Assembly (NCBI GenBank): GCA_026710655.1
Contig: JAPOQN010000005.1
Span: 62,001 to 126,000, forward strand
Direction: 5' to 3'
Origin: Chloroflexota bacterium
Lineage (GTDB): Bacteria; Chloroflexota; Dehalococcoidia; Tepidiformales; Tepidiformaceae
DNA length: 64,000 nucleotides
Both the position numbers and the translations under genes were made by a program. Positions 5,994 to 9,465 of this stretch are shown piece by piece (within the stretch, counting starts at the first letter, position 1; each line of letters opens with the position of its first letter). The notes under the pieces were generated by a model. That model saw only the letters and a list, made by a program, of their open reading frames with translations. It was not told the DNA's origin and did no database searches.

Positions 5994-7247
5994 ATGACCC
6001 GGTACTGGCGGCGGCTGCGGCATGCCTACTACGGCTGGTGGCTGCTGGCGGGTTCGGTCGTCGCGGTGGCGCTGGCGGCGGGCATCTCGTTCTGGTCGTT
6101 CGGACTTTATGTCGACCCACTGGAGCAGGAGTTCGGCTGGTCGCGGGCTCAGGTCGCCGGGGGCTTCTCCATCGCACAGCTGGGGGCCGGCTTCGCGGCG
6201 CCGCTGGTGGGGCGGTGGATCGACCGGTACGGCCCGCGGCGGATCATCCTTATCGGGGCGGTGCTGACGGGGGCGAGCTACCTGCTCCTTGCGACCACGA
6301 GCGAGCTGTGGCAGTGGTTTGTCTACCAATCCATCAACGCCGTGTTCCGGCAGATGATGTTCTTCATCCCCTTCCAAACGCTGATCTCGCGCTGGTTCGA
6401 CCGGCGGCGGGGGCTGGCAGTAGGGATCCTGGGAACGGGGTTTGCCCTGGGCGGACTTGTGCTGGTGCCGATCATGCGGGCGGTCATCGACGCGGTGCAG
6501 TGGGAGGGATCGTTCGTGGTGGCGGGGATCGTGACGGTGGCCATCTTCACGCCCCTCTGCATACTCCTCATCCGCGACAACCCGTCGGACATCGGCGCCG
6601 AGGTAGATGGGGCAGCCCCACCCGCGGGCGAGCCGCGGACGGACCCGGCCCTGACCGGGGTGACGGTACAGGTGGCGCTGCGCACACCGCTGTTCTGGGT
6701 GATCGCGGCAGCGCTGACCGCCTTCTTCTTCGGGATGGTGGCCTGGATGGTGCACGGCATCCCCTACTTCGAGGCGGCGGGCTATTCGACCGAGCGGGCG
6801 GCGCTGTTGTTCTCGATCGCGGCGGGCGGCGGCGTGGTCACGCGGCTGGGATTCGGCTACCTGGCGGACCGCATCCCCCGCATGGAGGCAGCGGCGATGG
6901 TGGTCGCGGGGTTCATCGTCTGCGCGTTCGCGACACTGCTGATCACCGAAGGGAGTGTCGTCGGCGTCGCCATCTTCCTGGTGCTCTGGGTGGTGGGGGC
7001 AAGCGGCGGGCCGATGGTGGAGCCGCTGCTGCTGACGCGCTCGTTCGGGCTGGTCGCGTTCGCCTCGTTGCTCGGGATCGTGCAGGTGGTCGGGAGCCTG
7101 CACCTCGCGAGCCCCATTATCGCCGGGGCCATCTTCGATGCGACCGGAGGCTACGAGTGGGCGCTCGTGATGTTGATGGGCTCAATGGGGCTCTCGGCGG
7201 CGCTTTTCTGGGTGGCCTGGCGGCTGCCGCGACCGCACTACGGCTAG
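5994..7247 (+). CDS. MFS transporter (tandem copy 2)
   Basis: A 417-residue major facilitator paralogous to the gene just upstream. Shared blocks include RHAYYGWW, FWSFGLYVDPLEQEFGWSR, GRWIDRYGPRRIILIGAVLTG, MMFFIPFQTLISRWFDRRRG and ALRTPLFWVIAAALTAFFFGM. The ATG at 5994 (MTRYWRRLRHAYY) follows the previous stop by 25 bases. The stop at 7245-7247 lies in a CTAG shared with the convergent selenoprotein-like gene on the other strand. Tandem duplication followed by divergence is the simplest reading; two specificities or a heterodimer are possible. Confidence 0.88.
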   Translation: MTRYWRRLRHAYYGWWLLAGSVVAVALAAGISFWSFGLYVDPLEQEFGWSRAQVAGGFSIAQLGAGFAAPLVGRWIDRYGPRRIILIGAVLTGASYLLLATTSELWQWFVYQSINAVFRQMMFFIPFQTLISRWFDRRRGLAVGILGTGFALGGLVLVPIMRAVIDAVQWEGSFVVAGIVTVAIFTPLCILLIRDNPSDIGAEVDGAAPPAGEPRTDPALTGVTVQVALRTPLFWVIAAALTAFFFGMVAWMVHGIPYFEAAGYSTERAALLFSIAAGGGVVTRLGFGYLADRIPRMEAAAMVVAGFIVCAFATLLITEGSVVGVAIFLVLWVVGASGGPMVEPLLLTRSFGLVAFASLLGIVQVVGSLHLASPIIAGAIFDATGGYEWALVMLMGSMGLSAALFWVAWRLPRPHYG

Positions 7248-7807
7248 CGGGCAGGCTGGTCGGCCGCGACGAAGGGCGCCATCATCGTGGGACCCCAGAC
7301 GACGGCGCCGCCATCGTCGAAGTCGAAGAGGCTGAGGCGATCGGAGTCGATGGGATCGTCGGTGCCGAGAGCGACGGGGAGCTTCTGGGTGCTCCACTTC
7401 GACATGTCGAGCATGAGCTCGACGATCTGGGACTCGGTGAAGTGGCTGCGGAGCTGCTCACGGAGCTCATCGCTGATGGCGCCAGGGGCGGTCACGAAGG
7501 CGTCGGTGAGGCGGAGGGCGACCTTCTGGTGTTCGGGCAGATCACTGTCTTCGTAGTGGTCGATCTTCTCGGCCATGGTCTCGTCGAGGCCTGCATCCCG
7601 GGCAACGCCCAGGCGTAGGGACATTCAGGTGTAGCACTGGTGCTGGCGGGCGCATCGCAACCGCACCAGCTCAGTCGTGACGGGATCGAGGCCGCTGAGG
7701 CGGACGACGGCATCCTGGTAGGCGCCGATAGCGGCGCCCAGTCCCGGGGCGACCGGGGCGGTTGGGGCGGCGGGTTCGGGCAGGCGGCGTTCTCGTACGG
7801 ACGTCAT
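7244..7807 (-). CDS. AhpD-like carboxymuconolactone decarboxylase family protein, probable selenoprotein (CxxU)
   Basis: Read through an in-frame TGA (7627-7625), this is a 187-residue protein. Residues 1-60 end ELVRLRCARQHQCYT, the TGA is codon 61, and translation continues MSLRLGVARDAGLDE in the same frame. In AhpD/CMD proteins this position is the CxxC redox pair next to 'L.R...A', so C58-x-x-U61 replaces it. Neither half alone is a complete CMD domain: the helices before and after the redox pair are split exactly at the TGA. A compact hairpin with a GUU loop follows 18 bases after the TGA (see 7597-7613). The ATG overlaps the stop of the upstream paralog (ATGA), so the two are coupled. 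Expected role: peroxidase/disulfide-type thiol chemistry. Alternative: a nonsense-disrupted gene. Confidence 0.75.
7597..7613 (-). promoter_or_regulatory. Putative bacterial SECIS hairpin
   Basis: On the minus strand, CCUGGGC-GUU-GCCCGGG can form seven base pairs (one U-G) closed by a three-base loop that begins with G. The loop starts 18 bases after the UGA at 7627-7625. Known bacterial SECIS elements sit immediately 3' of the UGA with the apical loop about 16-37 bases away and a G early in the loop, GU being the SelB contact in E. coli fdhF. This fits on position, stem and loop. It lies inside the coding sequence of the AhpD-like gene. Confidence 0.6.
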
Positions 7808-8277
7808 GCTGGCTCCTCCTGGGGCGCGAGGACCGTTCGCAGGCCCAGCGCCAGTCGCTGGTGTTGATCGAGAGCGAGGAGGGCGCTGACGAAGGCCTGC
7901 ACCTCTCCGGGGCTGAAGTGGGCGAGCAGGGCGTCGATGTCGCCCTGGCTAACGCCGGCGACGTCGCCGACGAATTGCTCGGTGAAGGCGAGGCAGGCGC
8001 GCTCGCGCTCGTTGAAGAGGGGGGAATCGGGCCAGTCGCTGATGGCGGCGGCCTTTTCGGGGGGGACAGGGGCGCCGGGGGCGGCGCGGGCGGCCTCGCG
8101 TTCGTCGGCCTGGAGGCTGGCGATGCGAAGCCGGCAGAGCTCGAGGACTTCGGGGTCGAGCGCTTGCCAGAGCTCGCCGTGGAGAGTGCTGATGACGTCG
8201 CGGACCTCGGGTGCGAAGCGCGCGAGGCGTTCTTCGAGGTCGGGGGCAAGAAGACTGGCGTCCTCGGCAGGGGGCAT
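7804..8277 (-). CDS. Carboxymuconolactone decarboxylase/AhpD-like family protein without CxxC
   Basis: A 157-residue helical protein that looks like a CMD-domain relative of the downstream gene. LEERLARFAPEVRDVISTLHGELWQALDPEVLELCRLRIASLQ matches the helix before the usual redox pair, and NERERACLAFTEQFVGDVAGVSQGDIDALLAHFSPGEVQAFV matches the second half. The redox position reads RIASLQADERE and has no CxxC. The chosen start is the ATG at 8277 (MPPAEDASLL); longer extensions run into the divergent promoter region. The stop overlaps the ATG of the probable selenoprotein, so the pair is translationally coupled and may form a heteromer. Confidence 0.75.
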   Translation of the reverse strand: MPPAEDASLLAPDLEERLARFAPEVRDVISTLHGELWQALDPEVLELCRLRIASLQADEREAARAAPGAPVPPEKAAAISDWPDSPLFNERERACLAFTEQFVGDVAGVSQGDIDALLAHFSPGEVQAFVSALLALDQHQRLALGLRTVLAPQEEPA

Positions 8278-8347: not shown

Positions 8348-8896
8348 ATGTCGGAGAACGAACGCATCCCCGCGGCGCTGATCGTGGAGGCTCTGAAAGC
8401 CGCGTTTCGCGGGCAGCGGAAGGCCCCGCCGGTCGACGGCGAGCCACTGGGCTGGGTGCTCTCCGTGCCGGACACGCACCAGCGCAGCGTAATCGCGGAG
8501 CTCGAGGGCGACGCCGACCTGCGGCTGTTGACTTGCTCAACGGAAGACGAGGCGAACGCGATCGCAGCGGGGCTCTACATCGGAGGGGCGGAGGTGGCGC
8601 TGATGATCCAGCACGCGGGGCTGTACGCCTCCGTGAATACGATGCGCGGGGTGGGGCTGGACGGGGGCGTGCCGCTGTTCGCGCTGGTGGGGCTGCTGAG
8701 CCGCGAGCCGGAGCTTGAACCAGCCGAATCGCCACGCTCGATGGTGCGCTTCGCGGGGCCACTGATGGACACGTTCGAGGTGCCGCACGCCCTGCTGGAG
8801 ACACGCAACGACCTCGGCCTCATTCCCGAGTACTACGCGCTCAGCCGGGAACGCTCGGGACCGGCGGTTGTCTTCGTCGGGCGGGAGACGGGCTGA
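8348..8896 (+). CDS. TPP-dependent decarboxylase, PYR-domain subunit (sulfopyruvate decarboxylase alpha-like)
   Basis: A 182-residue stand-alone pyrimidine-binding domain of a thiamine diphosphate enzyme. Residues around 60-75 (LTCSTEDEANAIAAGLYIGG) hold the conserved glutamate that activates TPP, and the following QHAGLYASVNTMRGVGLDGGVPLFALVG block is typical of sulfopyruvate/phosphonopyruvate decarboxylase-like proteins. It ends in TGATG, overlapping the start of the PP-domain gene by one base, so the active site is built from two subunits. The substrate is a 2-oxo acid; its exact nature is not determinable here. Confidence 0.8.
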   Translation: MSENERIPAALIVEALKAAFRGQRKAPPVDGEPLGWVLSVPDTHQRSVIAELEGDADLRLLTCSTEDEANAIAAGLYIGGAEVALMIQHAGLYASVNTMRGVGLDGGVPLFALVGLLSREPELEPAESPRSMVRFAGPLMDTFEVPHALLETRNDLGLIPEYYALSRERSGPAVVFVGRETG

Positions 8897-9465
8897 TGCG
8901 TCCCGAAGACGTGCTGCGAGCGATCAACGAGGCGCGGGGCGATGCGCTCGTCGTGCCGACGATGACGGCGGTGCCGGAGTGGCGCACGATCGCGCCGGAC
9001 GCGCCCAGCGTGGCCTGCATCGGCTTCATGGGAGGGGCGTCGTCGCTGGGGCTGGGACTGGCGCTGGCGCAGCCGGAACGCCGCGTGATCGTGCTCGATG
9101 GGGATGGGTCGCTGCTGATGCAGCTTGGGTCGCTGGCGACGGTGGCGGGGGCGGCCCCGGCGAACTACACGCACGTGCTGTTCGCGAACGGTGTCTACCA
9201 GACCTCCGGGAGCCAGGCGATCCCGGGGGCGGGGGCGGTCGACTTTGCGGGGATGGCGGAGGCGGCGGGGTACGCGTTCACGACGCGCATCGACACGCTG
9301 GAGGAGCTGCGCATACGGCTGCCGGAGCTGCTCAGCGTGAAGGGGCCGGTGCTGGTGGAGCTGGCGGTGCAGGAAGCGGAGCTCACGCCGATGACGGCGC
9401 CGGGGGGCGATCCCCTGCGCGTGCAGGTGGAGCGCCTGCGGGGACGGCTGGCGGACGGGGACTAA
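8896..9465 (+). CDS. TPP-dependent decarboxylase, PP-domain subunit (sulfopyruvate decarboxylase beta-like)
   Basis: A 189-residue diphosphate-binding partner of the preceding gene. GDG at residues 69-71 with Asn at about 98 (VLFANGVYQTSG) forms the Mg-TPP motif GDGx(24-27)N. FMGGASSLGLGLALAQPERRVIVLDGDG is the standard lead-in. The ATG overlaps the previous stop by one base. Length and the split arrangement match ComD/ComE-type enzymes rather than the fused acetolactate synthase class. A decarboxylase acting on a sulfonated, phosphonated or plain 2-oxo acid is inferred. Confidence 0.85.
   Translation: MRPEDVLRAINEARGDALVVPTMTAVPEWRTIAPDAPSVACIGFMGGASSLGLGLALAQPERRVIVLDGDGSLLMQLGSLATVAGAAPANYTHVLFANGVYQTSGSQAIPGAGAVDFAGMAEAAGYAFTTRIDTLEELRIRLPELLSVKGPVLVELAVQEAELTPMTAPGGDPLRVQVERLRGRLADGD

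Follow-up and report, generated by a model that had tools for sequence, protein, structure and literature searches.

A two-gene unit on the minus strand of the 64,000-nucleotide Chloroflexota stretch analysed here (the window) probably constitutes a coupled operon in which a SECIS-recoded selenoprotein of the CMD/AhpD type is made together with a CMD-fold pseudo-enzyme subunit. To judge from its sequence and those of its relatives, the second gene, A, very probably reads an in-frame UGA as selenocysteine (Sec) and thereby encodes an AhpD-type redox protein; the partner that precedes it is termed pA. B and pB denote a sister operon in the same genome, and C, D and E stand for further Sec-CMD subfamilies. 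The features concerned are the following.

7244..7807, minus strand: A, Sec-CMD gene of 187 aa with C58-Y-T-U61 (ATG at 7807-7805, stop TAG at 7246-7244).
7625..7627, minus strand: in-frame UGA, predicted selenocysteine codon U61, TGA in 9 of 9 orthologs.
7634..7636, minus strand: codon for C58, which probably acts as the resolving Cys in the CxxU motif.
7598..7612, minus strand: SECIS-like hairpin CUGGGC-GUU-GCCCGG, nt 13-27 after the UGA.
7804..8277, minus strand: pA, partner CMD gene of 157 aa, ATGA overlap with A; it has no CxxC/U pair, and D58 and E61 face C58 and U61 of A.
7815..7820, minus strand: AGGAGG, seen directly within the end of pA, probable ribosome-binding site of A.

Read from 7807 to 7244 with the TGA taken as U, the frame of A yields 187 residues, with 126 codons beyond the UGA before the TAG. 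The Pfam CMD domain (PF02627) was recognised at residues 21-77 with 28.2 bits against a cut-off of 23, and the match spans the UGA; the 126-aa open reading frame downstream of the UGA, taken alone, matched no Pfam family. The initial annotation had given the right coordinates for the feature, which sits on the minus strand; the plus-strand frame of 7244-7807 is unrelated to A. Its description of the gene agrees with what we found: the TGA falls at the second Cys of the CxxC pair in a CMD/AhpD-like domain, the frame stays open for 126 further codons, a hairpin with a GUU loop lies 18 bases past the UGA, and an ATGA overlap couples A to a CMD relative without CxxC.

A is present in all nine same-genus genomes examined (its own and eight others) with TGA at the same codon in each, and the other eight orthologs are 76-93% identical to A at the protein level. 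The sequence beyond the UGA is under purifying selection: pN/pS was 0.187 before the TGA, 0.210 after it and 0.155 over the following 89 codons. Searching its own genome with A returned six CMD matches, five of which contain exactly one TGA (C-Y-T-U, C-G-Y-U, C-R-Y-U, C-D-F-U and C-D-F-U), while the sixth, the partner of the sister operon, has no stop. A hand count of 107 CMD rows from 60 related genomes gave 66 with a TGA inside (one of which also has a TAA, and one of which, in G022, has only the natural stop of the gene), one with a TAG alone and 40 without a stop. All 61 of the distinct CMD sequences with a UGA that were counted have Cys at -3 from it. Position 61 is Sec in the close orthologs (9/9) and Sec or Cys in the other subfamilies; a Cys replaces the UGA, for instance, in the B gene of genus g13 and the C gene of G012. 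TGA is only one base from TGC or TGT, and a misread Cys codon or a decaying pseudogene could in principle produce the same picture. A read error is excluded, however, because nine separate genomes carry the same TGA, and the five UGA-bearing CMD genes in a single genome, the selection past the TGA and the predominance of TGA over other stops in the 107 rows (66 versus one TAG and one TAA) leave either version of this explanation with a negligible probability. When the search was widened to 400 genomes of the phylum, the profile of A alone found matches at 1e-12 in only two, its own genome included, and a combined A/B profile matched 106 at 1e-10. One CMD match (G418:C1:529668-529979) has two in-frame TGA codons and is possibly a double selenoprotein, or possibly just shows a natural stop.

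The machinery for Sec insertion is encoded in the same genome (3.14 Mb, 71 contigs, 93% complete). Genes for selA (517 bits), selB (300 bits) and selD (345 bits) were found over their cut-offs, and a tRNA-Sec scored 71 bits against a cut-off of 47 and was assigned the anticodon UCA by ARAGORN. The initial annotation had named these four genes, the residue at position 61 in homologs and a possible corrected read of the TGA as the points on which its selenoprotein interpretation would turn; with all four genes present, Sec or Cys in the homologs and the TGA repeated in nine genomes, that interpretation is supported. The distribution of selA among relatives points the same way. With A as the query, 23 of the 60 related genomes have a CxxU CMD, and selA is over cut-off in 20 of them; the three in which it was not found are 81%, 72% and 54% complete. 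Among genomes at least 90% complete, selA was found in 14 of 14 with a CxxU CMD versus 10 of 23 without (Fisher p 3e-4, shared ancestry ignored), although a more distant CxxU CMD may be present in some of the latter 23, and the A/B profile points to one in G051. The Sec form of B was found in 12 genomes with selA and also in G037 (54% complete, selA not found); the Cys form (CxxC) was found in G020, G028, G032 and G034, all four without selA, and also in G448, whose selA status falls outside the test. An in-frame UGA also interrupts the SelD gene of the source genome (L024, G000:C8:54778-58713), at GCGG-U-ASK, a stretch that we take to be the known catalytic site; SelD is therefore very probably itself a selenoprotein.

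Counted from the UGA, the hairpin stem of A starts after 12 bases and its loop after 18. The codons that form it, +4 to +9 (CGC CTG GGC GTT GCC CGG), do not differ among the nine orthologs and make up the longest invariant run in the gene, in which 29 of 110 comparable codons are invariant overall. Stem length and energy were compared with those of 2000 synonymous recodings of the same peptide. For stem length, P was 0.03 for A, 0.86 for B, 0.001 for D and 0.014 for E, and for C none of the 2000 recodings did as well; the corresponding values for energy were 0.02 (A), 0.57 (B), 0 of 2000 (C), 0.001 (D) and 0.14 (E). The stem of A is thus just moderately better than its synonymous recodings and that of B is no better. 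Because this test is weak for A and negative for B, the case for a SECIS element rests on a comparison of Sec with Cys forms and on changes in the paired bases. In distinct stretches taken from Chloroflexota relatives, stems of 6 bp or longer with the loop centre at nt 17-23 occur in 65 of 76 post-UGA stretches versus none of 22 post-CxxC stretches, and the difference persists when the sequences are clustered at 80% identity (25 of 29 clusters with Sec versus 0 of 13 with CxxC; Fisher p 9e-8, shared ancestry ignored). The remaining 11 Sec stretches have no 6-bp stem at this distance, and at three other distances stems were seen in 5, 0 and 1 of the 76. In the commonest register (loop at nt 21-23, GGC in 21 of 29), which was chosen from the same sequences on which it was scored, 172 of 203 cells pair, whereas sliding one side leaves 74-112 paired, and two to five standard pair types occur at each of the seven positions. 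The loop of A lies two bases nearer the UGA than in this register. On these comparisons, the hairpin of A, invariant in 9/9 and at a fitting distance for a CxxU selenoprotein, is a predicted conserved bacterial SECIS-like element.

Two other ways of reading the UGA can be weighed against these data. The codon could be decoded as Cys, Trp or another standard residue through a code change or a suppressor, and the Cys at position 61 of relatives would fit such decoding. This is nevertheless extremely improbable given the full Sec pathway, the use of UGA as a normal stop in the same lineage (for instance by pA in 8 of 9 genomes), the hairpin that follows the UGA and was seen after none of the CxxC motifs, and the replacement of the UGA by a Cys codon in B of the four selA-less genomes. 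Alternatively, translation could end at the UGA and restart at the AUG right after it, giving a split protein with a separate 126-aa chain. That ATG is indeed kept in 9 of 9 A orthologs. The codons at the same place in B, C, D and E of the own genome are AAG, ATC, GCG and CAG, however, with no common start among them; the split would also cut right at the redox pair, would release a piece that by itself matches no Pfam family, and would leave the hairpin and the Sec machinery unexplained. We regard it as very improbable, and Sec insertion at the UGA stays the preferred reading.

pA matches the Pfam CMD family weakly (17.4 bits, below the cut-off of 23). It lies directly upstream of A in all nine same-genus genomes; the two genes overlap by ATGA in eight of them, whereas in the ninth pA ends two bases short of A. 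Read off the alignment, the residue of pA that faces C58 is Asp in 9/9 and that facing U61 is Glu in 8/9 and Gly in the other one; the CxxC/U pair is lost in pA. The sister operon (G000:C1, L002/L006) has the same order, a CMD partner without a CxxC/U pair followed by a CxxU catalytic gene. It differs from pA-A in three respects: pB retains the first Cys (within the genus mostly as C-E-x-E), the operon also occurs in other genera, and its catalytic gene has CxxC in the selA-less genomes. The pB-B pairing was present in 18 of 18 genomes (16 plus G037 and G448). In one further Chloroflexota family, f72, a second CMD match in which the redox stretch is missing lies just downstream of the CxxU CMD at six of six loci (L119, L120, L127, L129, L130 and L136). 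A tree, in which two partner rows have odd composition, unites pA and pB in one clade (100/100), to which the G037 partner is closest (96/93); the f72 partners fall elsewhere, inside an f72/f57 group (100/99); the branching of the catalytic genes does not resolve the relation of A to B. Because the f72 partners sit apart from pA and pB, the pairing of an active with an inactive CMD protein probably arose at least twice in Chloroflexota.

The initial annotation had called the two-gene arrangement apparently uncommon. A single CMD match without a partner was found at 45 of 45 Sec-CMD loci other than A and B, although at seven of them fewer than 800 bases were available on one side and a partner there could be missed. 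The pairing is fixed in the nine genomes examined of the genus, recurs in the sister operon of other genera and probably arose at least twice, and is therefore a repeated design, no one-off. An adjacent sister gene with a lost redox site is in turn a hint of a two-part selenium enzyme. Against this, A could be a selenoprotein that forms homo-oligomers, as PA0269 and its relatives do (PMC3141380), and pA the product of an adjacent gene with a role of its own, perhaps regulatory or as an enzyme in its own right, coupled to A for expression only. In favour of such an arrangement, C, D and E, three of the five Sec-CMD subfamilies of the own genome, have no linked partner, a single CMD match being present at each of the 45 loci. 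It fits less well with the single clade of pA and pB, still paired in the two operon lineages of A and B, with the separate pairing in f72 and with the AhpD-like fold predicted for pA, and we regard it as possible, if doubtful. A catalytic gene working together with its inactive partner remains our preferred interpretation.

The active site of A resembles that of AhpD in part. E46, 12 residues before the first Cys and present in 9 of 9 orthologs, matches the Glu of the AhpD relay and C58 its first Cys, and at the place of the relay His (+4 from the second Cys or Sec) all nine orthologs have Arg (R65). The +4 residue was R in 69, N in 6 and H in 5 of 80 distinct CxxU sequences, and H in 13 and R in 8 of 21 distinct CxxC sequences. 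Since this sample leans toward relatives of A and B, and since Cys forms with Arg exist, the Arg appears to mark lineage at least as much as it marks Sec. By sequence, A matched AhpD-like PDB chains at 9e-8 and the A/B profile matched chains of the same kind at 1e-14. The AlphaFold model of A, built from nine close sequences, reached a pLDDT of only 43 and was for this reason left out of the fold search and geometry. The model of pA (pLDDT 76.7) matches AhpD-like PA0269 and Atu0492 at E ~1e-4, suggesting an AhpD-like fold. Bmp8 is an AhpD-fold debrominase with debromination chemistry and a likeness to deiodinase. A could accordingly be imagined as a reductive dehalogenase of this type that acts on brominated metabolites with Sec used as in thyroid deiodinase; the pA model does match Bmp8 (6ohj, 6ohi; Foldseek E ~0.03-0.04), as does the A/B profile (E 0.91). 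Both matches are weak and rank below peroxidase-like members, and none of the neighbours examined could be recognised as a dehalogenation gene, which makes this role improbable; peroxidase or oxidoreductase chemistry is the assignment we favour.

The PDB entry closest in sequence to A is PA0269 (2ijc, 2o4d, 7xw1; 9e-8), which shares the Glu at -12 and the CxxC/U arrangement. It has Cys51 where A has Sec and His55 where A has Arg, whereas A belongs to a two-gene operon. His55 has been called invariant in the AhpD-like set, and PA0269 is described as weakly reducing H2O2 (PMC3141380). Human Sestrin2 combines a redox-active AhpD-like half (Sesn-A) with a half that has lost the motif cysteines (Sesn-C), and it reduces cumene hydroperoxide via the active half (PMC4674687). 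It resembles pA-A in that division, and differs in being a single chain with a single Cys, no Sec and the eukaryotic partner GATOR2 (PMC4674687). The resemblance would be one of design and not of membership, sestrin being one chain and pA-A two overlapping genes.

AhpD-like selenoproteins had been predicted in environmental data before, as the initial annotation stated: AhpD-like and CMD-like CxxU selenoproteins were described from the Sargasso Sea in 2005 (27 and 4 sequences; PMC1088965) and AhpD-like ones in the GOS survey of 2008 (299 and 70 sequences; PMC2398784), AhpD/CMD-like proteins are one of the more frequent kinds of selenoprotein in marine sequences (PMC2398784), and a 2026 review lists several (PMC13188914). 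In the accessible portions of these accounts they share with A the CMD-type domain, Sec as the second residue of a CxxC-like pair, a hairpin 3' of the UGA and Cys homologs. A differs in that it scores far below the cut-offs of the three NCBIfam models of such proteins which it matches (NF053654, 36.4 of 310 bits; TIGR01926, 21.3 of 81.8; NF041047, 19.4 of 110) and is paired with pA. The claim of a new selenoprotein accordingly holds only for a new member outside the curated NCBIfam models, because the motif family is already in print. In the accessible parts of the marine-survey literature we saw no functional test of AhpD/CMD-like selenoproteins, and published accounts of their neighbours, as far as available, mention Prx-like selenoprotein genes and no pair of active and inactive CMD genes. 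Likewise, within the accessible share of the open-access literature we found no description of Sec-CMDs from Tepidiformales or of any Sec-CMD with a partner CMD protein that has no CxxC/U. We judge A ordinary for a CxxU CMD and its fixed partner the interesting part; that pairing seems to be what is new.

As neighbours of the pair, the window contains two tandem MFS transporter genes (PF07690; 4547-7247, plus strand) and two overlapping genes at 8348-9465 (plus strand), the second with a TPP-enzyme C-terminal domain (PF02775) and the first with no Pfam match; the latter pair is presumably a split sulfopyruvate or phosphonopyruvate decarboxylase. In seven of eight relatives an MFS gene ends close to the pA-A pair and the TPP gene pair lies beside it; in L102 the former is ~0.8 kb off and the latter was not found, and therefore the neighbourhood suggests no clear function. 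Among 23 mechanically called ATG open reading frames of more than 400 aa in the window, some of them surely antisense shadows, the stops were 18 TAG, 4 TGA and 1 TAA, so that TAG seems unusually common as a stop there.

Taken as a working model, pA and A would be translated from a two-gene, translationally coupled operon in which SelB binds the hairpin 3' of the UGA and Sec is inserted at position 61. Sec61, second in the redox pair, would act as the nucleophile; C58 would be the resolving Cys and E46 the proton acceptor. Attack of Sec61 on a peroxide or disulfide would lead to a selenenylsulfide with C58, and a cellular thiol system would then reduce this form of A, or of an A-pA oligomer. 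Arg65, which stands where AhpD has its relay His, may hold the selenolate through its charge, as Sec requires little deprotonation. pA would serve as a CMD-fold pseudo-enzyme subunit that builds an oligomer with A or docks partners, making A-pA a hetero-oligomeric selenol/thiol peroxidase or oxidoreductase. By analogy with the family chemistry known from PA0269 and Sestrin2, on which this scheme is based, hydrophobic hydroperoxides or protein disulfides would be its likeliest substrates. Tentatively, and as a bolder idea that may well prove wrong, we further propose that a heteromer of a Sec-CMD and a CMD pseudo-enzyme, with Arg replacing the relay His, is a split bacterial counterpart of sestrin that evolved at least twice in Chloroflexota.

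This lineage has five predicted AhpD/CMD-like selenoproteins in one genome, two of them in fixed pairs with a partner that has no redox pair, and its selA-less relatives hold a Cys version of the sister pair. Two questions become open to test with small proteins: whether a pseudo-enzyme partner makes the enzyme, and what Sec gains over Cys when the relay His is an Arg.
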